Shown here: positions 16,956 through 27,219 of the stretch, piece by piece
Layout of the letters: each line of letters starts with the position of its first letter
Position numbering within the stretch: position 1 is the first letter of the stretch
Assembly: GCA_951812825.1 (NCBI GenBank)
Contig: OX638324.1
Span: 130,977-194,976 of the forward strand
Length of the DNA stretch: 64,000 nucleotides
From: an uncultured Dehalococcoidia bacterium
GTDB lineage: Bacteria > Chloroflexota > Dehalococcoidia > Lucifugimonadales > GCA-2712585
Reading direction: 5' to 3'
Program-made: the position numbers and the translations under genes
Notes under the pieces: generated by a model
Database searches by the model: none
Seen by the model: only the letters and a program-made list of their open reading frames with translations
Told to the model about the DNA's origin: nothing

Positions 16956-18371
16956 ATGGCGAGTAAAGACATTGCATTGATGGCCCACCTGATGAGACGA
17001 GCGGGCTTCGGCGCCTCCTACGAAGAGTTGGAGGAGAGGGTTGCCAAGGGCTATGAGGCTACCGTGGAAGAGCTTTTGGACCCGGCGGCCTATGGAGTGC
17101 CACCTGTGGACAACTTCCTGATGTGGCGCTACCACCCGATGAACGAGTTGCCGCAGGCGCCGCCCTACGGCACGATGAACTTTCTCTATTATATGTTCAC
17201 CACCAAGAGGCCCCTGGAAGAGAAGATGACCCTGTTCTGGCACATGGTCTTCGCAACGGGCAACTCCAAGATTGACAACCCCACGGAGATGAACCGGCAG
17301 ATCAACATGTTCCGGGAATCCGGAATGGACAACTACCGGGACCTGCTGGTTAGACTGGCGAAGGACCCGGCGATGATCTTCTGGCTGGACAACAACATGA
17401 GCCATAAGCACGCGCCCAACGAGAACTGGGGCCGGGAGCTTCTTGAGCTCTTCTCCATGGGCCAGGGGAACTACTCGGAGGACGACGTGAAGATGGCTTC
17501 CAGGGCCTTTACCGGCTGGACCATCAAGGCGAAGCTGCCTCGTGCGCCTTACGGACGCTATTTGTGGGAGTTTGAATACCGCGCGGAAGACCACGACGAC
17601 AGCGAGAAGGAGTTCCTGGGCCGGAAGGGCAACTTCAACGGCGAGGATATCATCGACATTATCCTAGAGGAACCGGCCACTGCCCGGTTCATAGCGCGTC
17701 ACCTGTATAGCTTCTTCGTAGCAGACGAAGTGCAGGTGCCCAGCTGGAAGGATGTTGCTCCGAGGGACCCGGAGGCGGTGCAGGCCATAGCCGACGCCTT
17801 CGCAGGCTCCAACTACGACATCAAGGAGACGCTGCGCTTCATCTTCAACTCGGACTTCTTCAAGGACGAGGCCGTCCGGTTTGCCAAGGTGAAGAATCCG
17901 GCGGAGGTAATCGCCGGGACAATTCGTCTAATCGGCGACTATCAGGAGCCGAAGCCGGGCGTGATGCATCTGGCCCTGGAGACAGGTTACCAGGGGCAGG
18001 AGTTGATCAATCCTCCCAGCGTGGAGGGTTGGCACACGGGCTCCGAGTGGATAGACACGGGCGCCCTGGTTCGAAGGGTCAACTTTGTAGCCTCCCTGCT
18101 GGGAGACGCCAGCAAGCCCGGGGTAAGATCCATCATCGACAAGCTGGGCAATCGTGAATCCATGACTGCCGACGAGATGGTGGACGGATGCCTCGAGCTT
18201 CTGGGGGCCATCCAACTGGAAGAGGGCACCCGCCAGCAGATTGTCACCCACGTCGAGTCGGGCGGCGAGGTCAGGCGAGGCTCCACGGAAGAAGAGGTGG
18301 CGGCCTTCGGGCATCGGGTCACGGAAGTGCTCCAGCTAATCGCCGCCGCCAGGGAGTACCAGTTCGCGTAA
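16956..18371 (+). CDS. DUF1800 family protein
   Basis: 471 residues. Begins with the family signature MAHLMRRAGFGASYEELE, then FWHMVFATGNSKI, NENWGRELLELFSMGQGNYSEDDVKMASRAFTGWTI, and a late LINPPSVEGWHTGSEWIDTGALVRRVNF. No signal peptide is present, unlike many members. Function unknown; DUF1800 genes usually pair with DUF1501 sulfatase-like genes, which is not the case here. The ribosome site is GGAGGGAG before ATG. Followed 75 bases later by an NHL-repeat gene, probably co-transcribed. Confidence 0.9.
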   Translation: MASKDIALMAHLMRRAGFGASYEELEERVAKGYEATVEELLDPAAYGVPPVDNFLMWRYHPMNELPQAPPYGTMNFLYYMFTTKRPLEEKMTLFWHMVFATGNSKIDNPTEMNRQINMFRESGMDNYRDLLVRLAKDPAMIFWLDNNMSHKHAPNENWGRELLELFSMGQGNYSEDDVKMASRAFTGWTIKAKLPRAPYGRYLWEFEYRAEDHDDSEKEFLGRKGNFNGEDIIDIILEEPATARFIARHLYSFFVADEVQVPSWKDVAPRDPEAVQAIADAFAGSNYDIKETLRFIFNSDFFKDEAVRFAKVKNPAEVIAGTIRLIGDYQEPKPGVMHLALETGYQGQELINPPSVEGWHTGSEWIDTGALVRRVNFVASLLGDASKPGVRSIIDKLGNRESMTADEMVDGCLELLGAIQLEEGTRQQIVTHVESGGEVRRGSTEEEVAAFGHRVTEVLQLIAAAREYQFA

Positions 18372-18378
18372 ATTGAAT

Positions 18379-18404
18379 GCCGCCGGGCTTGCAAGCCCGG
18401 CGGC
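18379..18404. repeat. Perfect 26-base palindrome between DUF1800 and NHL genes
   Basis: The sequence is an exact inverted repeat centred on TTGCAA, with flanking GCCGCCGGGC arms. No T-run follows, so it is more likely an RNA-stabilising or attenuating hairpin than a full terminator. Confidence 0.7.
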
Positions 18405-18446
18405 TCAACCCAACTTCATCTTACAGAATTCGAGAAGGAGGTTGTT

Positions 18447-19454
18447 ATGGCGCTAATCCAGACCATCGGAGATCGCACTTACACCTACAGCCACTGCGTC
18501 GGCAGTCTCTTCGCCTTTACGGCTCCCTCGGACATGGTGCTGAGGCCGGATGGCGTCGCCTATGTGGTGAGCCGGGGCGGAGACCCGGGATATCCCCTGG
18601 GCGGCAGGCAGAAATGGAACAAGTGGGACTTGGAAGGGGACGTGAAGATCGTAGAGGCCGGTGGCCAAGGCATGGGTGAGGGGGACCTGATGTGGCCCTC
18701 CGGCATCGACATAGGGCCCGACGGAAACGTCTACATTACCGACGAGTACATGAACCACGTGAATATCTTCTCCGACGACGGAGACTTTATGGGAACGTGG
18801 GGGACGTCCGGCTCCGGCGAGGGCCAGTTGGATGGTCCCACGGGCATCCGCTTCGATACCGACGGAAACGCGTACGTGGCGGAGAGCAGAAACAACCGCG
18901 TTCAGAAGTTTAATTCAAGTGGCGAGTACCTGAGCGGATGGGGCGGAGCCGGTGACGGCGCGGGCCAGTTCAACATGCCCTACGGCCTGCACATCGACAG
19001 TGGCGGAAACGTCTTCGTTGCCGACTGGGGCAACGACCGGGTACAGAAGTTCACGCCGGACGGTGAGTTGCTGATGCAAATCGGCGGTTCAGGCACGGAA
19101 ATCGGTCAGCTGCAACGTCCGACCAGCATGGCTACGGACTCTGACGGCGACGTTTACGTTGTCGACTGGGGCAACAACCGGGTACAGGCTTACGACGAAA
19201 CGGGGGACATCATCACCGCGCTCTACGGGGATGCCCGAGAGCTTTCCAAGTCGGCCCAGGTCTTCATCGAGGCCAACTCAGACTTCGTGAAGGCCCGCCG
19301 GAGGGCAGATACCTCCAAGGAGTGGACATTCAGGCGTCCTTCCGCAGTTGCGGTGAACGACAAGAACCAGATTCTGGTAATCGAGTCGATTAGTGGCCGG
19401 ATTCAGATCTACCAGAAGGAAGACGACTACCTGGACCCGCAGTTCAACCTGTAA
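18447..19454 (+). CDS. NHL-repeat beta-propeller protein
   Basis: 335 residues. About six NHL blades, each with the pattern G.DG.VYVxD..NNRVQ.F...G; examples lie at VYITDEYMNHVNIF, AYVAESRNNRVQKF, VFVADWGNDRVQKF and VYVVDWGNNRVQAY. Between blades the spacer G-x-GxGEGQL is repeated. No signal peptide. Such propellers bind proteins, RNA or ligands, or act as lactonase-like or peptidyl-alpha-hydroxyglycine-lyase-like scaffolds. Ribosome site GAAGGAGG. A strong terminator follows. Confidence 0.88.
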   Translation: MALIQTIGDRTYTYSHCVGSLFAFTAPSDMVLRPDGVAYVVSRGGDPGYPLGGRQKWNKWDLEGDVKIVEAGGQGMGEGDLMWPSGIDIGPDGNVYITDEYMNHVNIFSDDGDFMGTWGTSGSGEGQLDGPTGIRFDTDGNAYVAESRNNRVQKFNSSGEYLSGWGGAGDGAGQFNMPYGLHIDSGGNVFVADWGNDRVQKFTPDGELLMQIGGSGTEIGQLQRPTSMATDSDGDVYVVDWGNNRVQAYDETGDIITALYGDARELSKSAQVFIEANSDFVKARRRADTSKEWTFRRPSAVAVNDKNQILVIESISGRIQIYQKEDDYLDPQFNL

Positions 19455-19491
19455 AGGGACGCATAGCGTCGACATAGGGGACGAAATCAAG

Positions 19492-19524
19492 AGAAGGGCG
19501 GCATAATCGCCGCCCTTCTTTTTT
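19492..19524 (+). terminator. Rho-independent terminator after the NHL gene
   Basis: An 11-base perfect stem (AGAAGGGCGGC / GCCGCCCTTCT) with a 6-base loop is followed by a run of T. It ends the DUF1800-NHL unit; the convergent anti-sigma gene ends 45 bases further on. Confidence 0.92.
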
Positions 19525-19568
19525 GTTGGGAGAATTCGGCCCCGGCGCCGAAATAAGGGCAGAACCGG

Positions 19569-20612
19569 TTAGCGGGAGCCGGCGCGGGGGATGCCCGGAT
19601 AGAGGGGGTCTGCGAGGGAAATCTCGCCCCACAGCACCAGGTCTCCGCGGCGGCCCTGTAACGAGGCGTCTTCTGCGGGTTCGACGGAAACGCCCACCCA
19701 GTGATACTCAGCCATGGGCATTTCCGGTACGATGAGGACCTGGCCCCAGCCCATTTCGTCTATTGCAAGAACGGCTACCAGGTATTCGTGTCTGTCTCTT
19801 CGCAGCCAGACGTTGTACTGGTGGTTATGCGGGGGCGTGTGAAGTCCGGTGGCGACGAAGACGCACCAGCGCTGATCCAGATTCATCATCAGGTTGCCTT
19901 GGGCGGCTCCCGAATCTGACTCCAGCTTCAGTACGTGGGTGCCGGGCAGGGTGAGCATGTAAACGATGGACTGCTGGGTCCGCAGCACGTTCATCATCTC
20001 CTTGCCGCTGTCAGCCAGGGCGTCCACCTGCTCATACAGGGCCTCGTTGCCGGAGACCAGTTCGTCCACGTCCGCGTTTACCTCGGAGCTTTCCTGGTGC
20101 AGCATTGTCACCCGCTCGCCCATCTCACTGTTGTGATGCATCAGGCTGTTGAGCTCGTCGGAGAGGGCGCTGTTGTGCTGCTGCAGGTCCGTTACCTGCT
20201 GGGTCAGGCCGGCGTTCGCCTCGTGGAGATTGTCCATCTGGCCGGAGGTGCGGAGGGTGAAGGCCAGCACCCCGCCCAGAAGAAGGAGGGCCATGAGGGC
20301 GCCGGCATATACGAAGGCGCCGATTACGGACAGGGGGCGGCGTCGGAAGCGGCCCGGAGGCCTTTCCGTCGAGGTTTCAGCGGCTGCTTCGTCGGCGGCT
20401 ATTCGCTTCTTGACGCCGGTAAGGACTCTGGGATGAGGCGGCTCCTGGTCCACGGCCAAGGACAGGGTGGAGGCCGCATCTCTCAGGATTCGCGCCTGAC
20501 CAGAGCACCAGGAGCATTCGTCCAGGTGTCTCTCAACGGCCTGTTCATCCTCCGGGCTCAAGGCGTCCAGGGCGTAAGCGGGAATGAGGGCTTCTATGTC
20601 CTTGCAGTTCAT
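19569..20612 (-). CDS. Membrane anti-sigma factor (zinc-finger ZAS plus RskA-like C-domain)
   Basis: 347 residues. The N-terminus is an anti-sigma zinc finger (HLDECSWC, about 30-37, in the HxxxCxxC form). One membrane helix lies around 95-118 (FVYAGALMALLLLGGVLAF). The outside part starts with a long coiled coil of about 80 residues rich in Leu/His/Met heptads (LTQQVTDLQQHNSALSDELN onward), then an RskA-type beta domain (MMNLDQRWCVFVATGLHTPP; YNVWLRRDRHEYLVAVLAID). The coiled coil between the helix and RskA domain is unusual. It overlaps the sigma factor gene by 4 bases (ATGA), so the pair is translationally coupled. Confidence 0.9.
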   Translation of the reverse strand: MNCKDIEALIPAYALDALSPEDEQAVERHLDECSWCSGQARILRDAASTLSLAVDQEPPHPRVLTGVKKRIAADEAAAETSTERPPGRFRRRPLSVIGAFVYAGALMALLLLGGVLAFTLRTSGQMDNLHEANAGLTQQVTDLQQHNSALSDELNSLMHHNSEMGERVTMLHQESSEVNADVDELVSGNEALYEQVDALADSGKEMMNVLRTQQSIVYMLTLPGTHVLKLESDSGAAQGNLMMNLDQRWCVFVATGLHTPPHNHQYNVWLRRDRHEYLVAVLAIDEMGWGQVLIVPEMPMAEYHWVGVSVEPAEDASLQGRRGDLVLWGEISLADPLYPGIPRAGSR

Positions 20613-21265
20613 GGACTCAGCGCTGCCTCATTCTTGAAGATTGACCTCAGCTTCTGCATTCCAAGTCTGATTCGGGTTTTTACGGTGCCCAAGGGCTGTT
20701 CGAGAATTTCCGCGATCTCCGACTGGGAGTACCCCTGGAAGTAGGACATAAGGATAACAGTCCTCTGGGCTTCGGGTATGGTCTGAAGGGCCTTCGCAAT
20801 TTCCTGGCGCTCGATGCTCCTGAAGGCCTCATCTTCTGTGCGGACCTGATAGAGCATCTCCATGCTGGCCATCTCCTGGGCCATTCTGTCCATTGACGCC
20901 CGGGCCCGCTTTGCGGAACGCACGTGGTCAATGACCCGGTGGTGGGCAATGCTCATGAGCCAGCCCTTGGGGGATCCCCTGTTGGCCTTGAAGGTTCCAG
21001 CCTTCTGCCAGACGGCCAGGAAAACATCTTGCGCAATCTCCTCGGCGATGGCTTCGTCCTTAAGCATGTATCTGGCCAGGGAGAAAACCTGGGTTGAAAA
21101 CCTTTCGTAAAAGCACTCCAAAGCTTCCTTGTCACCGTGGGCGATAAGGGTAAGGAGATTTTCGTCTCCCAGGCTCTCATACTGTCCCGTCAACTCCGCC
21201 CTCCCGGGAGATGGTAACCGCCTTTCCAATTCATAATACGCAGAACTTTCCCCTTTCGGATTCAA
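20609..21265 (-). CDS. ECF RNA polymerase sigma factor
   Basis: Up to 218 residues. Region 2 lies about 48-110 (FYERFSTQVFSLARYMLKDEAIAEEIAQDVFLAVWQKAGTF; GWLMSIAHHRVIDHVR), region 4 about 155-205 (IPEAQRTVILMSYFQGYSQSEIAEILEQPLGTVKTRIRLGMQKLR). The SigK/RskA-like partnership fits the ZAS/RskA-type gene immediately downstream. The start is uncertain: the listed TTG has no good ribosome site, and a TTG 24 codons later (21193), preceded by GGGAGGGCGGAG, is a reasonable alternative. It follows the SirB1-like gene by 8 bases. Confidence 0.92.
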   Translation of the reverse strand: MNPKGESSAYYELERRLPSPGRAELTGQYESLGDENLLTLIAHGDKEALECFYERFSTQVFSLARYMLKDEAIAEEIAQDVFLAVWQKAGTFKANRGSPKGWLMSIAHHRVIDHVRSAKRARASMDRMAQEMASMEMLYQVRTEDEAFRSIERQEIAKALQTIPEAQRTVILMSYFQGYSQSEIAEILEQPLGTVKTRIRLGMQKLRSIFKNEAALSP

Positions 21266-21273
21266 GGGCCCCG

Positions 21274-22113
21274 CTAGTTCATGGAAGCGAGGTTATCCCA
21301 CAGGTTTTTGATCTGGGCTCGGACGGAATCTGCGTCATCGGCCACTGGATTGAGGTCCAGGTAGGTCTCCAGGTCTTCAATTGCCCTGGAGTAGTTGTGA
21401 GTCCTGTAGAACATCCAGGCCCGCTCCTTAAGGTTGCTGCCCATGTATGGGTCCAGCAGGGCGACTCTATCGGCCGCGGCTATGGCTTGACTGTAGTCTC
21501 GCCGTCGTACGTGCATCATCTTCAGATTGGACAGGAGGTTGACCAGTAGCTGTCTCTTGGTGCAAGGCTTGAAGAACTCCTCGGAGAGATGGACCGTGTG
21601 GCCAGAGGCCTTTTCTGTTAGCTTACCACACTCTTCCCTGGTAATGATTTCACCGTGATGATGGGGGTCCAGATAGATGTCCTCACCCTGAGACGGCGTT
21701 CGAATGACCAAACGGTTGGGGAGGTTGATTATTTCGAAGAACATGCCCAGCCGGGCGCCCACTTCCATGTAGACGAGGGAAAGGGCGATGGTCATGCCCC
21801 TTCTTCTAGAAAGGACCTGGTCCAGGTACAGGTTGCCGGGATTGAATTGGTCCTCCACGTTGTCGGAGTAGCCCTGAGTCTCGCCCAGGTAGGAGCCGAG
21901 GGTCTTGAGCTTTGCGGGGAGGTCCATTGAGGGTTTCAGGTGCTCTCGGACCTTCTCTGCCAGGTCATCGAGCTTTGTGGTGGACTCTTCCACGTTCACG
22001 ATGGGGGAGTCCTCGGCGGCAATGTAGAGCGCGCCCTTGGCCAGATCAAAGTCCCGCTGGGTGGGCTTCACCAGGTTGGCAAAGAGTTCACGGTACACTT
22101 GCTTCTTGTCCAT
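21274..22113 (-). CDS. SirB1-type transglutaminase-like protein with TPR
   Basis: 279 residues from the ATG preceded by AAGGAGCAAA; a longer in-frame start exists but lacks a ribosome site. The SirB1 core is clear: FNPGNLYLDQVLSRRRGMTIALSLVYMEVGARLGM, with LYLDPHHHGEIITREEC after it. The usual transglutaminase Cys is absent: the segment reads RRRGMTIALS where active members have GxC, so it is probably non-catalytic. The C-terminal third is TPR-like (SQAIAAADRVALLDP, SRAIEDLETYLDLNP). Probable first gene of an operon with the sigma and anti-sigma genes. Confidence 0.85.
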   Translation of the reverse strand: MDKKQVYRELFANLVKPTQRDFDLAKGALYIAAEDSPIVNVEESTTKLDDLAEKVREHLKPSMDLPAKLKTLGSYLGETQGYSDNVEDQFNPGNLYLDQVLSRRRGMTIALSLVYMEVGARLGMFFEIINLPNRLVIRTPSQGEDIYLDPHHHGEIITREECGKLTEKASGHTVHLSEEFFKPCTKRQLLVNLLSNLKMMHVRRRDYSQAIAAADRVALLDPYMGSNLKERAWMFYRTHNYSRAIEDLETYLDLNPVADDADSVRAQIKNLWDNLASMN

Positions 22114-22211
22114 TTTGCTCCTTAGTTGCTTAGAAATGGTTAATGAATTGCACAATCTGGGTTACAACCAGGGTTGAGGGGGACTTGCCGCCCGAGACAG
22201 GCGGAAAGATG

Positions 22212-22248
22212 GGACGTCAGCGCTCCCGTATGGGAGCGGCCGACGTCC
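22212..22248 (-). terminator. Hairpin terminator after the TreT gene
   Basis: Outer stem GGACGTC/GACGTCC and inner stem CGCTCCC/GGGAGCG with loop GTAT, 15 bases beyond the treT stop on the minus strand. Only a short T-rich stretch follows, so termination may be incomplete. Confidence 0.6.
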
Positions 22249-22263
22249 GGTTGAAAGTAGGGT

Positions 22264-23568
22264 CTAGGTCCCCGGGGTGTCGAAGGCCATGGCGCCGATT
22301 GCTCGGACGGCCTTAGCCTCCTGGCAGGCCTTCAGATAGTCACGCAGGAATCGAGGCAGCAGAAAGCGTTGTCGTACGCTGGTACGGGCCGCTTCTCCCA
22401 TGGATGCGCGGAGTTCCGGTTCCTGCAACAGGCGAAGGATGCGTTGAGCGCACTGGGGCACGTCGTTCACCAGAAAGCCGCTTTCGCCGTCGCTAATCTG
22501 CAGCCGGATGCCTCCGACGTTCCCGCCGATGACGGGCTGACCCTTCCACATGGCCTCCGTGACGGTAAGGCCGAAACCTTCCCGGACGGACTTTTGCAGG
22601 ACCACGTCCGAGGCGGTCTGGAAGGCGCTGACAACCAAGTCTACCGATTCCAGGGGAATGTCAGCGTCGCCATAGAGGTGGATGTCCGGGTCGTCCTTGG
22701 TTTGGGCGGATATCTCTTCGAAGATTACCTTGCCTTCCGGGTCGTCGGCAGCGTGGGAAGCTCCGAGGTAGGCGAGCTGTACTTGAGGCATCTGTTGTTT
22801 GACGATCCTGTAGGCCTCAACCACACCCCAGGGGTCCTTCCACGGGTCGAAACGAGAGACTTGGGTGACGAGGGGTCTGGCAACGTCGATGCCCATGGCC
22901 GCCATGCGGATCCTGGCTTCATCCACGTCCATGGGACGGTTCTTGACGCTCAGGGGATCGATGGCTGGCGGGATTATCTCAACGGAAGCGTCTTCCAGAC
23001 CTGCCGGAACGTATTGCTGTAGGGAGAAGACTTTGACGTCAGCCTCGCGGATGTTGCCGGAGACGCTGGCCAGCATATCCAGATTAGGTGCGGAAAGGTC
23101 TATGTGACACACCCACACGATGGGCGGATAGGCGTCTTCGGGAAGGAGGGCCATCATGGGCAATAGCTGGGGGTCGTGCAGAATCCAAACGTCGGCTTCT
23201 ATGGCCGAGAAGTCCAGGTTTGCGGCCTGACCGGCGTAGGTGGTGTAGGTGTGACGCTCCTTGGGGGTTAGAGAGCCTTCGGCGCCCTGCATGAGGTTGT
23301 GAATCTTCTTAGTTACGTCGAAGAACTCGGCGGGTGGGCTGACGACGTACCAGTCGGTGTCGAGGCCCAAGCCCTTGCTGATGGGAATGAGGGACCGGAG
23401 TATCTCCGCGACGCCTCCACCGACGGCGGTGCTGTTGACGTGAATGATGCGCTCGCCTTCCATGCGAGCGACCAGGCTGCGGAGATCCTCGACAAGGCTG
23501 GGTTCGAGGAGCTCCGTGTATGGTTTAAAGGGAACGGGGTCGAATTCAATGCGATGAAACATATCCAC
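22264..23568 (-). CDS. treT: Trehalose synthase TreT-type GT4 glycosyltransferase
   Basis: 434 residues. Resembles TreT, which joins NDP-glucose and glucose to make trehalose. Seen: IIHVNSTAVGGGVAEILRSLIPISKGLGLDTDW (nucleotide/acceptor loop), VCHIDLSAPN, PPAIDPLSVKN, VSRFDPWKDPWGVVEAY (GT4 C-domain start), then SVREGFGLTVTEAMWKGQPVIGGNVGGI with the EX7E-like motif. No partner trehalose genes nearby, so it likely makes an osmolyte on its own. It is separated from the SirB1-sigma operon by a hairpin. The ATG at 23566-23568 follows GGAGT. Confidence 0.88.
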   Translation of the reverse strand: MDMFHRIEFDPVPFKPYTELLEPSLVEDLRSLVARMEGERIIHVNSTAVGGGVAEILRSLIPISKGLGLDTDWYVVSPPAEFFDVTKKIHNLMQGAEGSLTPKERHTYTTYAGQAANLDFSAIEADVWILHDPQLLPMMALLPEDAYPPIVWVCHIDLSAPNLDMLASVSGNIREADVKVFSLQQYVPAGLEDASVEIIPPAIDPLSVKNRPMDVDEARIRMAAMGIDVARPLVTQVSRFDPWKDPWGVVEAYRIVKQQMPQVQLAYLGASHAADDPEGKVIFEEISAQTKDDPDIHLYGDADIPLESVDLVVSAFQTASDVVLQKSVREGFGLTVTEAMWKGQPVIGGNVGGIRLQISDGESGFLVNDVPQCAQRILRLLQEPELRASMGEAARTSVRQRFLLPRFLRDYLKACQEAKAVRAIGAMAFDTPGT

Positions 23569-23776
23569 TCCTAGGGCGTCGTAATCCCGGGTATGGCAAA
23601 ATCATCGGTAGAGAATACTAATGTGGCTGAGACGGGCAATTCAATGCCAGAAATTGCAGCTTTTTGCCGATATTCTTTGTGCAAATTTTCGTTGGCAGAG
23701 ACGGCTTTTCTTTCATAATTCAGGCTTATGTGAAGCCTTTAGCTACTATTTCGGCGCATTCAATTCCTTGATTACG

Positions 23777-23805
23777 TTGACAGGGATTGAACGACTGGAT
23801 ATTCT
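23777..23805 (+). promoter_or_regulatory. Promoter of the Fe-S (RdhA-like) gene
   Basis: TTGACA at 23777-23782 and TATTCT at 23800-23805 with a 17-base spacer; predicted start near 23812, leader about 34 bases. One of the best sigma-70-type matches in the window. Confidence 0.7.
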
Positions 23806-23845
23806 GGGGAGAGTCTCATAGACGGCCCGACGGAAGGAGAAAGCA

Positions 23846-25135
23846 GTGAAGAAGCGCATTAGTCACGTTCTGAAAAGGCCCGGACTGAGAAACGGCGACC
23901 CATCCATTGAGATTCCGGTGGCTGAGGACCTGGTCACTACCCCGGGCATCCGACAGGTGCCGAAGGACGTGGACTTCTATTCGAGGTCATACCCGCTGGA
24001 AAGCCAGAGTATCACGAACACGGCGGACTCCGAATGGGCGTGGACGGTCTACCCGGAGGAGGAGCAGGAGGGACACCGGGAGCACGTGCGCCTTTCCAAG
24101 GAGGTGGTGAAGATTTCCGGCGAGTACGGGGATATAGAGCCGACGGTGGAACCCGAACCGGGTAAGGACGTTACTGAGGAGATAAAGGCAAAGGCGCGGG
24201 ACTTGGGCTTCGGTGAGGTGGGGATAACCCGTTACGACCGCCGTTATACTTTCAAGTACAAGAAGCGATGGATCAGGTTTGAGCATGCCATCTGCATCGC
24301 CTTCGAGCAGGATTACGAGAGGACGCAGGCGATTCCGAGCATGTTCGCCGAGACGACCCACTTCGGGACTTACCGGACTATGAGCCAGGCGGGATTGCTT
24401 CTGGCGGACTACATTCGCAGCCTGGGATATCACGCGCAGGTGCACAGTCCCGCCGACAACAGCGCCGCATATATCCCCATGTTTGTGCAGGCGGGTCTGG
24501 GTCAGCTGGGAGCCAACGGTCAGCTGCTTTCACCCCATTTTGGCTCTCGCGCCCGTCTGATGATTATCACAACGGACGCCATAATCACATACGACAAACC
24601 GTTGGACTACGGCATCCACAAGTTTTGCGAAATCTGCCAGGTGTGCGTCAATCGTTGCCCCGGTCGCGCGCTAATCAGGGACAAGGTGTGGTGGCGAGGA
24701 GTGCAGAAGCATAAACTTGTCTATGACCGGTGCCGTCCCGTTATGGCGCGGTACACCGGCTGCGGCGTGTGCATGAAGGTTTGTCCCGTGCAGAAGTACG
24801 GAATGAAGCCAGTGATGGAGCATTACGTGGAGACGGGAGAGGTGTTGGGGAAAGGGACTCACGAGCTTGAAGGATACAGCGTCGAGGGCAAGGGCTACTT
24901 TGGGCCCGGGGAGCTTCCCCACTTCAACCACGACTTTTTCGATATACCGCACGGTCGGTCCGAGGACATGCTTTTCGAGGAGTTCAAGGAGAAGCTGAAC
25001 AACCACGAGATCCCGGACGGACCAGCAGGCGACGAAGTTCTGCGGGAGTTCAAGAAGGAAGTGGAGGAGATAGTGGCTAAGCCTGTGGACGACGCTATGG
25101 CGCTGCTGCCCCAGAAGGAACAGACGGCGATGTAG
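23846..25135 (+). CDS. Cytosolic reductive-dehalogenase-like / QueG-like double [4Fe-4S] protein
   Basis: 429 residues, GTG start with GGAAGGAG. No Tat or Sec signal. Residues 110-255 form a corrinoid-binding-type domain like that of RdhA and QueG (AKARDLGFGEVGITRYDRRYT; LGYHAQVHSPADNSAAYIPMFVQAGLGQLGANGQLLSPHFGSRARL). Two [4Fe-4S] sites follow: Cys261, 264, 267, 271 (CEICQVCVNRCP) and Cys296, 306, 309, 313 (CGVCMKVCP). RdhA reduces organohalides; QueG reduces epoxyqueuosine. The lack of a Tat signal and the long N-terminal extension fit a soluble, cofactor-dependent reductase of unknown substrate. Convergent with the small W-tailed gene. Confidence 0.85.
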   Translation: MKKRISHVLKRPGLRNGDPSIEIPVAEDLVTTPGIRQVPKDVDFYSRSYPLESQSITNTADSEWAWTVYPEEEQEGHREHVRLSKEVVKISGEYGDIEPTVEPEPGKDVTEEIKAKARDLGFGEVGITRYDRRYTFKYKKRWIRFEHAICIAFEQDYERTQAIPSMFAETTHFGTYRTMSQAGLLLADYIRSLGYHAQVHSPADNSAAYIPMFVQAGLGQLGANGQLLSPHFGSRARLMIITTDAIITYDKPLDYGIHKFCEICQVCVNRCPGRALIRDKVWWRGVQKHKLVYDRCRPVMARYTGCGVCMKVCPVQKYGMKPVMEHYVETGEVLGKGTHELEGYSVEGKGYFGPGELPHFNHDFFDIPHGRSEDMLFEEFKEKLNNHEIPDGPAGDEVLREFKKEVEEIVAKPVDDAMALLPQKEQTAM

Positions 25136-25153
25136 CTTGGAGGTTGGGCTGGC

Positions 25154-25384
25154 CTACCAGCCTGGGGGAAGAGAGTCCCAGCTATCCCTGAGCCAAGCCC
25201 AGGCAGGGGAATGCCGGATGGAGTTTATTTCCTCTTGGTTCAGGCCCCAACTCTCGAGAACCCCCAATGGGTCGGCAGCCAACTCCTCGCGGAGCTTTTC
25301 GTCGTTGGAGATGCGGTCGATGAAGTTGTTGAAGGCCCCTTCCAGGTTTTCCCTGGAGATTCCCTGACCTACGATTTCGGACAC
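25154..25384 (-). CDS. Small NHLP/LigA-like protein with tryptophan-rich tail
   Basis: 76 residues, GTG start with a strong AAGGAGG site 7 bases upstream, which argues that it is real. Residues 13-57 (LEGAFNNFIDRISNDEKLREELAADP, then LGVLESWGLNQEEINSI) have the helical DEKLREELAADP...WGLxxEE pattern shared by LigA subunits and by NHLP/Os1348-type RiPP leader peptides. Residues 59-76 (SPAWAWLRDSWDSLPPGW) are a separate Trp-rich tail with W62, W64, W69 and the final W76. No radical-SAM or other RiPP maturase lies in the window. Function unknown. It is convergent with the Fe-S gene and divergent from the ThDP gene. Confidence 0.75.
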   Translation of the reverse strand: MSEIVGQGISRENLEGAFNNFIDRISNDEKLREELAADPLGVLESWGLNQEEINSIRHSPAWAWLRDSWDSLPPGW

Positions 25385-25513
25385 TTCGACCCTCCTTGAA
25401 ACTCGTCAGGGCGAGAATTTCCCACAACGAATTGGACGCTGGTTGCTGATTTGCATGGTAGCAACGGGCCAATGCACAGTCAACGTCTAAGGACGCTTGT
25501 TAGTGGCTCAAAG

Positions 25514-25578: not shown

Positions 25579-27219
25579 ATGCCCCGAATGACGACGGCGC
25601 AGGCGTTGGTGCGCTCCCTTGTAAGGGAGGGTGTGGAGGTGGTCTTCGGACTTCCGGGCGTGCAGATAATGGACGTCTACGACGCCTTCTACCACGAGCC
25701 GGGCATCCGCCTTATCACCACCCGCCACGAGCAGACCGCCGCATACATGGCCGACGGCTACTCCCGCTCTACGGGCAAGATTGGCGCTGCGCTGGTGGTG
25801 CCGGGGCCGGGTCTGCTGAATGCTGCCGCCGGAATCGGCACCGCCTATGCTTCCTCGTCGCCTGTGCTGCTGCTGGCCGGGCAGGTGGAGAGCTACAACA
25901 TTGGCAAGGGTGCGGGGGCCGTCCACGAGGTGGTTGACCAGCTTGACGTGGTGAAGAACATCACCAAGTGGCGGTCGACCATCATGGAGCCGGCCGAAGC
26001 GCCGGAGGCCGTCCACGAGGCGATGAAGCAGCTTCAGACGGGGAGACCCCGCCCCGTGGCGTTAGAGGTGCCCTCCGACGTGCTGGCGCAGTCGGCGGAC
26101 GTGGACCTGCTGGAGCCGGAGGTGTTCGCCAAGCAGGGACCGACTGCGGATGCCGTTGAATCGGCGTTAGACATTCTGAGCCAGGCGGAACGTCCCATCA
26201 TCTGGGCAGGGGGCGGAATAAACCTGGCCGGCGCCAATGAAGAGTTGACCAAGCTTGCGGAAGCTCTGAACGCCGCTGTTATCGTAACTGCCGAGGGCAA
26301 GGGCGCAATTGCCGAAAATCACCCCAACTACGTCGGGCCTTATTACTACAGCCACGGGCCCGGTCACCGGGTTGTGCCCCAGGGTGACGCGATCCTTGCG
26401 GTGGGCACGCGGCTGCACTTCTTCAATCCGGTGTCGTGGAGCTTCAAGCCGGACCAGCCGATAATCCACGTGGACGTCGACCCGGAGGAGTTGGGCAGGA
26501 ACTGGCCGGAGGAGGTCAGCATCTGCGCCGACGCCAAGCCGGCGCTGCAAGCGCTGCTGCACGGAATCAAGGGACGTGGGAACAAGAGTCAATGGACAGC
26601 AGAAGAGATCGCTCATCACAGGGCCTTGGACTACCAGGACACAAAGGCCAAGGCTCCCGACCAGGCGCGGATCATTGAGTCGATCAGGGCGGAGTTGGAG
26701 GACGATGCTGTACTCATAAGCGGCATATCCAGCATTGGCTACTGGTCTCACCTGGCCTTTCCGGTGCTGGCTCCCCGGTCCTACCTGAACACATCGTATT
26801 TTGCCACGCTTGGCTACGCCTTTCCCACGGGCCTTGGGGCCAAGGTGGGAAATCCCGACCGGCAGGTGGTGGTGGTCACTGGCGACGGTGGGTTCATGTA
26901 CGGACTGCCGGACCTGGCTACGGCGGTGCAGGAGGGGATAAACTCGGTGACGGTGGTGTTCAACGATGGTGCGCTGGGCGCTTCCTTGCGTGACCAGCAG
27001 GTGCGATATAAAGGGCGAGTTATCGGGACTCGCTTGCGGAATCCCAACTTCGCCGCGACGGCGGAGGCCTTCGGCGCGGTAGGCGTCAGGTTGGAGCACT
27101 ATGATCAGTTGGGTGAAGCCCTGAGAGATGCGCTGAAGCTGGACGAGCCCGTCATCATCGACTGCCCAATAGAGAGCTGGACGCCGCCCTTCCAGATTGC
27201 ACCCCCGGGGAGCATGTAG
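25579..27219 (+). CDS. Thiamine-diphosphate-dependent enzyme (acetolactate synthase-like)
   Basis: 546 residues. The N-domain has VFGLPGVQIMDVYDAF and the catalytic Glu in TTRHEQTAAYMADGYSR. The central domain PIIWAGGGINLAGANEEL is the NAD-like/FAD-site domain, and the C-domain carries the ThDP/Mg motif GDGGFMYGLPDLATAVQEGINSVTVVFND. Family members include acetolactate synthases and various 2-oxoacid decarboxylases or lyases. The substrate is not deducible, and there is no small regulatory subunit gene beside it, so amino-acid biosynthesis is not assured. Ribosome site GGAGGTGAAGG. Confidence 0.9.
   Translation: MPRMTTAQALVRSLVREGVEVVFGLPGVQIMDVYDAFYHEPGIRLITTRHEQTAAYMADGYSRSTGKIGAALVVPGPGLLNAAAGIGTAYASSSPVLLLAGQVESYNIGKGAGAVHEVVDQLDVVKNITKWRSTIMEPAEAPEAVHEAMKQLQTGRPRPVALEVPSDVLAQSADVDLLEPEVFAKQGPTADAVESALDILSQAERPIIWAGGGINLAGANEELTKLAEALNAAVIVTAEGKGAIAENHPNYVGPYYYSHGPGHRVVPQGDAILAVGTRLHFFNPVSWSFKPDQPIIHVDVDPEELGRNWPEEVSICADAKPALQALLHGIKGRGNKSQWTAEEIAHHRALDYQDTKAKAPDQARIIESIRAELEDDAVLISGISSIGYWSHLAFPVLAPRSYLNTSYFATLGYAFPTGLGAKVGNPDRQVVVVTGDGGFMYGLPDLATAVQEGINSVTVVFNDGALGASLRDQQVRYKGRVIGTRLRNPNFAATAEAFGAVGVRLEHYDQLGEALRDALKLDEPVIIDCPIESWTPPFQIAPPGSM

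Follow-up and report, generated by a model that had tools for sequence, protein, structure and literature searches.

A free-standing helical protein remotely related to the Os1348/NHLP clan, encoded near an RdhA-like gene in Dehalococcoidia: a candidate docking or cap subunit

We describe a small protein, encoded in a 64,000-nucleotide stretch of DNA from an uncultured Dehalococcoidia bacterium (hereafter the window), that is a remote homologue within the Os1348/NHLP clan and whose reading as a RiPP precursor is not supported. We infer, tentatively and at close to an even chance, that it acts in trans on the enzyme made from an adjacent gene, as a free-standing subunit that docks on it or caps its active site.

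Results

A genuine small gene with a conserved ribosome-binding site

An earlier description of the window, made from its letters only (the sequence-only reading), placed a small gene with a strong ribosome site between an RdhA-like Fe-S protein and a ThDP enzyme. Gene and neighbours are as described, the first neighbour being convergent and the second divergent. The open reading frame, for which no strand had been given, lies on the minus strand, and its product reads ...HSPAWAWLRDSWDSLPPGW; as claimed, it has four Trp among its last 18 residues and ends in PPGW.

25154..25384, minus strand: small-protein gene, 76 aa, GTG start, stop included in the coordinates
25390..25397, minus strand: Shine-Dalgarno site AAGGAGGG, a sequence match
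25455..25483, minus strand: promoter-like site TTGACT-17-TACCAT upstream of the small gene, a consensus match only
23846..25135, plus strand: RdhA-like protein, cytosolic, convergent neighbour of the small gene
25579..27219, plus strand: ThDP-dependent enzyme, acetolactate synthase-like (PRK08266), divergent neighbour

The AAGGAGGG site is separated from the GTG by 5 nt, and every homologue has GGAG or AGGAGG at the corresponding position in front of its start. Good promoter-like sites occur on both strands of the 194-base gap between the small gene and the ThDP gene (three sites, against 0.2 expected), and TG precedes the second box of the site at 25455..25483. On the other side, 18 bases separate the stop of the small gene from that of the convergent RdhA-like gene. 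A plus-strand open frame that overlaps the small gene (25137-25367) was rejected as spurious.

That the gene is real is borne out by one paralogue in the same genome (45% identical), by homologues in four other genomes, one copy each and all from the GTDB family of the source, and by the pattern of substitution: 12 columns are invariant in the alignment of the six sequences, and pN is lower than pS in 15 of 15 pairs. Judged from these sequences, the small gene is under purifying selection. It is confined to one GTDB family of Dehalococcoidia-like bacteria; strong matches occur in only 5 of 250 genomes of the order, and two weak order-level matches were set aside, one (G141) with an internal stop and the other (G041) matching the body only. 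With the alignment as query, three family copies were recovered independently in GTDB contigs labelled Chloroflexi or Dehalococcoidia, and a scan of GTDB contigs with the single window sequence as query gave no match. A phage origin was likewise rejected, there being no phage match and no relative on viral contigs; a viral fold library gave nothing useful.

Profiles and models place the protein in the Os1348/NHLP clan as a remote homologue

The protein divides into a conserved body and a Trp-rich end.

25205..25336, minus strand: conserved body, residues 17-60, helices 1-4 of an NHLP/Os1348/LigA-type bundle (profiles and model)
25157..25204, minus strand: Trp-rich C-terminus, residues 61-76, with a conserved AWAWLRDSW helix, then about six variable residues and the PPGW end

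NF038399, the Os1348 family, was matched by all six members, weakly and below curated cut-offs (best E 1.6e-8, NCBIfam); the window protein scored 22.9 bits against a curated cut-off of 40 bits for this model of about 63 positions. TIGR04509 was matched by all six as well. In four of the six the body is remotely similar to the NHLP leaders of TIGR03793 and the Nif11 leaders of TIGR03798, the best member reaching E 1.1e-4 with TIGR03793 and the window protein itself not being among the matches. Pfam LigA (PF07746) gave 14.3 bits and E 0.046 with the window protein, which fails the gathering cut-off of 25.3. When a profile of the six members was searched against the PDB, the matches were nitrile hydratase alpha, SonA, the gallate dioxygenase DesB and the TH1 NHLP leader; their E values are weak (0.003 to 0.09), and almost nothing unrelated ranks above them.

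The AF2 model obtained with the shorter G002 homologue placed first in the alignment is a five-helix bundle (pLDDT 85.7, pTM 0.70), and that with the window sequence first reached pLDDT 70. Helix 5 of the G002 model is the Trp-rich stretch, residues 48-56, with a mean pLDDT of 82 for residues 51-60. For both models SonA chains came first, being the best VIA-align matches (7ltc, 9ch7 and others; Z 3.9 to 4.8, all below 5), and Os1348 (6lk7) was the top Foldseek match of the G002 model, a weak one (E 0.78, TM 0.47, VIA Z 2.6).

Sequence and structure independently indicate the same few PDB proteins, though each statistic is weak alone. Since all six members match NF038399, if weakly, and the five-helix model is closest to Os1348 and SonA, remote homology within the Os1348/NHLP clan is supported. 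The NHLP/Os1348/LigA affinity that the sequence-only reading had proposed for the body thus holds as a remote relationship; comparison with the NHLP, nif11 and LigA families yielded that remote similarity, and not above-cut-off membership of NF038399, TIGR03793 or PF07746.

Related modules on other Dehalococcoidia proteins

Within the same class, the small-protein profile reaches the C-termini of formate dehydrogenase and FocA, and free small ORFs in those loci.

L030, L035, L036, L037, L038, L044 and L046: module at the formate dehydrogenase C-terminus
L042 and L045: module on FocA-like proteins
L041 and L045:1-294: free small ORFs beside FocA

The one Os1348-type formate dehydrogenase module tested scored 53.3 bits, above the NF038399 cut-off, and matched the small-protein family over the body with an hhalign probability of 96.5%; the FocA transporter modules gave weaker NF038399 scores, below the cut-off. 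From the above-cut-off score and the match to the small-protein body we conclude that modules of the "NHLP clan", attached to ordinary proteins, are common in the class Dehalococcoidia.

Most modules associated with formate dehydrogenase or FocA end ...W(L/I)..RL.QEKW, and in other Dehalococcoidia families several proteins of formate metabolism have a common attached module. Elsewhere, an Os1348-like module is N-terminal on a CRP-like protein with a cyclic-nucleotide-binding-like domain (L029:1138-1743, minus strand), which resembles acetyltransferase Pat and family 2B encapsulin profiles.

A duplicated block and two candidate partners

An RdhA-like gene lies no more than 3.3 kb from the small gene at all six loci and is directly convergent with it at five; at five of the six, too, a gene for an HpcH/HpaI aldolase is directly upstream on the strand of the small gene, with short gaps. 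The order of aldolase and small gene, facing an RdhA-like gene, is found in G001, G002 and G006, and G004 keeps aldolase and small gene together with the RdhA-like gene 3.3 kb farther on. At the paralogue locus, genes for an NHL protein, the aldolase and the small protein, in that order, face a run of opposite direction in which PIG-L, DUF1800 and NHL genes precede the RdhA-like gene. The window copy belongs to a partial second version of this block, diverged and without the aldolase, in which the RdhA-like proteins are 80% and the small proteins 45% identical to their counterparts and which includes two further genes.

16956..18371, plus strand: DUF1800 protein, 66% identical to the DUF1800 protein beside the paralogous RdhA-like/small pair
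18447..19454, plus strand: NHL-repeat protein, 46% identical to the NHL protein beside the paralogous pair

The ThDP enzyme gene was not found beside any of the other five copies of the small gene. The two diverged DUF1800/NHL repeat/RdhA-like/small-protein blocks of this one genome occupy window positions 16956-25384 and about 18 to 25 kb of G000:C1 (L007). Genes on the opposite strand (sigma/anti-sigma, transglutaminase and trehalose synthase-like) interrupt the window block; the ECF-type sigma factor and RskA-like anti-sigma factor (window 19569-21265) adjoin it and are a possible regulator.

Five genomes of the GTDB family have both the small gene and the RdhA-like gene; two have neither, and these are only 70 and 78% complete. 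One of the two, G005, does have the aldolase. Across the order, 118 of 247 genomes carry RdhA-like genes, and nearly all of these have no small gene; since the RdhA-like protein is so common without it, the small protein is not an obligatory subunit. Up to seven RdhA-like copies per genome are found in this order.

The window RdhA-like protein matches NpRdhA (4ras, 2.4e-32) and PceA and keeps two Fe-S cysteine motifs. Its Tyr176 and Arg237 align with Tyr426 and Lys488 of NpRdhA, which we take to be the catalytic residues of that enzyme; a catalytic Tyr and Lys/Arg are typical of reductive dehalogenases. At the aligned Tyr the family that carries the small gene has the motif GTYRTMSQ where most others have GTYExEGA; its RdhA-like protein also has an insert at the C-terminus. 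Motif and insert are compatible with a different substrate or with the gain of a partner, though descent alone may account for them.

We infer that the RdhA-like protein is the most likely partner, because of co-occurrence, and that the aldolase is the second candidate, because of co-orientation. The specific proposal that the small protein serves a cytosolic corrinoid RdhA-like enzyme, within a wider Dehalococcoidia habit of placing the module on redox enzymes and transporters, is nevertheless somewhat doubtful. Further observations speak against an enzyme subunit here: the small gene is convergent, not co-transcribed, with the RdhA-like gene, and the pair is known from five closely related genomes only, in which shared descent alone can keep a block together.

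The small protein might instead be an accessory subunit of the HpcH/HpaI aldolase, in which case the window copy would act in trans on the single aldolase at the other locus. The close placement of the small gene downstream of the aldolase gene favours such a role, as does the general setting: LigA-type modules cap aromatic ring-cleavage enzymes, and HpcH/HpaI-type aldolases act downstream of these. But no aldolase lies beside the window copy, G005 has the aldolase (64% identical) and no small gene, and elsewhere in the order, too, other families have aldolases without it; we regard this role as unlikely. Just as unlikely, in our estimate, is a small regulatory or stand-alone scaffold protein that binds neither neighbour and whose linkage reflects shared descent of the block. 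The restriction to five related genomes would agree with this, and so would duplication of the block (DUF1800, NHL, RdhA-like and small gene) as a whole, passengers included. Against a passenger stand the purifying selection that persists on the two copies, although they are now 45% identical, and the arrangement in G004, which retains the small gene although its RdhA-like gene has moved 3.3 kb away, showing that retention is not a matter of position alone.

The Trp-rich C-terminus is probably not a precursor core

In the sequence-only reading the C-terminus was a separable tail, the core of a leader-plus-core precursor that might be matured by enzymes encoded elsewhere. The stretch AWAWLR.LW is, however, the most conserved of the small-protein family, with a mean pairwise identity among the six members of 73% in the AWAWLR segment, compared with 44% in the body and 31% in the last residues. 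A conserved tail segment is therefore present, and at 73% versus 44% it is the opposite of a hypervariable core. Nor does it look separable, being the fifth helix of the fold in the better AF2 model. With the Trp stretch both the most conserved segment and the last helix, almost nothing remains as core: about six residues follow helix 5, and the G006 member, which terminates ...IRVNWTL, does without them, so that the small protein equals a leader module that lacks a core. The length of the NF038399 model leads to the same point, since the homologous part fills the whole small protein. In NHLP precursors a Gly-Gly cleavage site closes the leader (PMC2887384); Gly-Gly is absent from all six members, and so is Cys.

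The genome-wide search for maturation enzymes covered YcaO, TP methylases and SPASM radical-SAM proteins in the source genome, which is 96% complete. It has no YcaO and no borosin-type (SonM-type) methyltransferase; its two TP methylases, RsmI and a uroporphyrinogen-III methyltransferase/HemD fusion beside hemC, are both housekeeping enzymes. The single SPASM radical-SAM gene lies beside a glycosyltransferase, 1.5 Mb from the small gene. Among the scanned neighbours of the small genes there was no RiPP enzyme, and no YcaO or LanM-type gene nearby. The leader-plus-core architecture is not supported by these results, and for the enzyme classes searched maturation from elsewhere looks improbable; we rejected the small gene as a RiPP precursor on its helical, conserved tail, the lack of a core, and the lack of YcaO, SonM or a nearby radical SAM.

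One form of that reading is a precursor in which an enzyme from another locus modifies the tail, perhaps to yield a conserved, cofactor-like product with modified Trp; in PQQ and mycofactocin the precursor core is conserved. The clan match to RiPP leaders and the conserved aromatic C-terminus are in its favour, as are the presence of one SPASM radical-SAM protein in the genome and the precedent that RiPP precursors can be encoded far from the enzymes that mature them (PMC2887384). Even so, the Trp stretch is predicted to belong to the fold, the six or so residues left over vary or are missing, and the genome-wide enzyme inventory offers housekeeping TP methylases and a SPASM protein 1.5 Mb off, with neither YcaO in the genome nor Gly-Gly or Cys in the protein; we think such a precursor quite improbable. 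A true LigA subunit of a LigAB-type extradiol dioxygenase is scarcely credible, for the weak Pfam LigA match (E 0.046) is far below cut-off and LigB (PF02900), searched with working controls, had no match in the 96% complete genome.

Discussion

The absence of LigB largely disposes of a LigA-like subunit in the strict sense. What survives best of the earlier reading is a LigA-like mode of working, in which the small protein would serve another enzyme as an accessory module, and this is what our docking or cap proposal extends. Under that proposal, contact with the partner enzyme would be made by the five-helix bundle, with the Trp helix AWAWLR.LW closing it, and the short PPxW end would extend to the partner's surface or entrance. 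By analogy, the bundle may dock as the SonA leader does on SonM and as LigA domains do on dioxygenases; the SonA leader binds SonM, and relatives of its fold serve dioxygenases as active-site caps, either in cis or in trans (PMC8429565).

NHLP/Os1348-type RiPP leaders and LigA-type cap subunits have one small helical fold in common. The existence of free members without core or maturase, alongside fused members, suggests that the general job of the module is docking on enzymes, and it is a warning that automatic annotation may mislabel ORFs of this kind as "NHLP RiPP precursor". Should the RdhA-like protein prove to be the partner, the cytosolic RdhA-like enzymes of a common uncultured marine lineage would have a candidate accessory subunit in the small protein.

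Among characterized relatives, Os1348/PosA (6lk7) is likewise a helical module; all six members match its profile, and it is the top, though weak, Foldseek match of the better model. PosA has a Gln-rich core and an ARMD end (PMC12636437), both of which the small protein lacks, and Os1348/PosA has GNAT, HEXXH and SagB-type neighbours where the small gene has none. SonA, of the split borosin system of Shewanella, has a five-helix bundle of about 53 residues, like the one predicted for the small protein; its leader comprises residues 1-53 and is followed by a linker and core, residues 54-71 (PMC8429565), whereas in the model of the small protein helix 5 is followed by only some six residues. The SonA system also includes a SonM-type methyltransferase, unlike the source genome. 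LigA, including the LigA domain of DesB (PF07746; 3wku), resembles the small protein as a helical cap module, with a weak profile and fold match, but the small protein is below the PF07746 cut-off and the LigB partner is absent from the genome. To NHLP and Nif11 leaders the likeness is remote and concerns the body, and the hypervariable core rich in Cys, Ser, Thr and Gly is theirs and not the small protein's. The fused Dehalococcoidia modules match the small protein over the body in profile-profile comparison, and both end in a Trp-containing helix; but the fused modules sit on a large enzyme or transporter while the small protein is free, and their C-terminal helices do not align with the AWAWLR helix.
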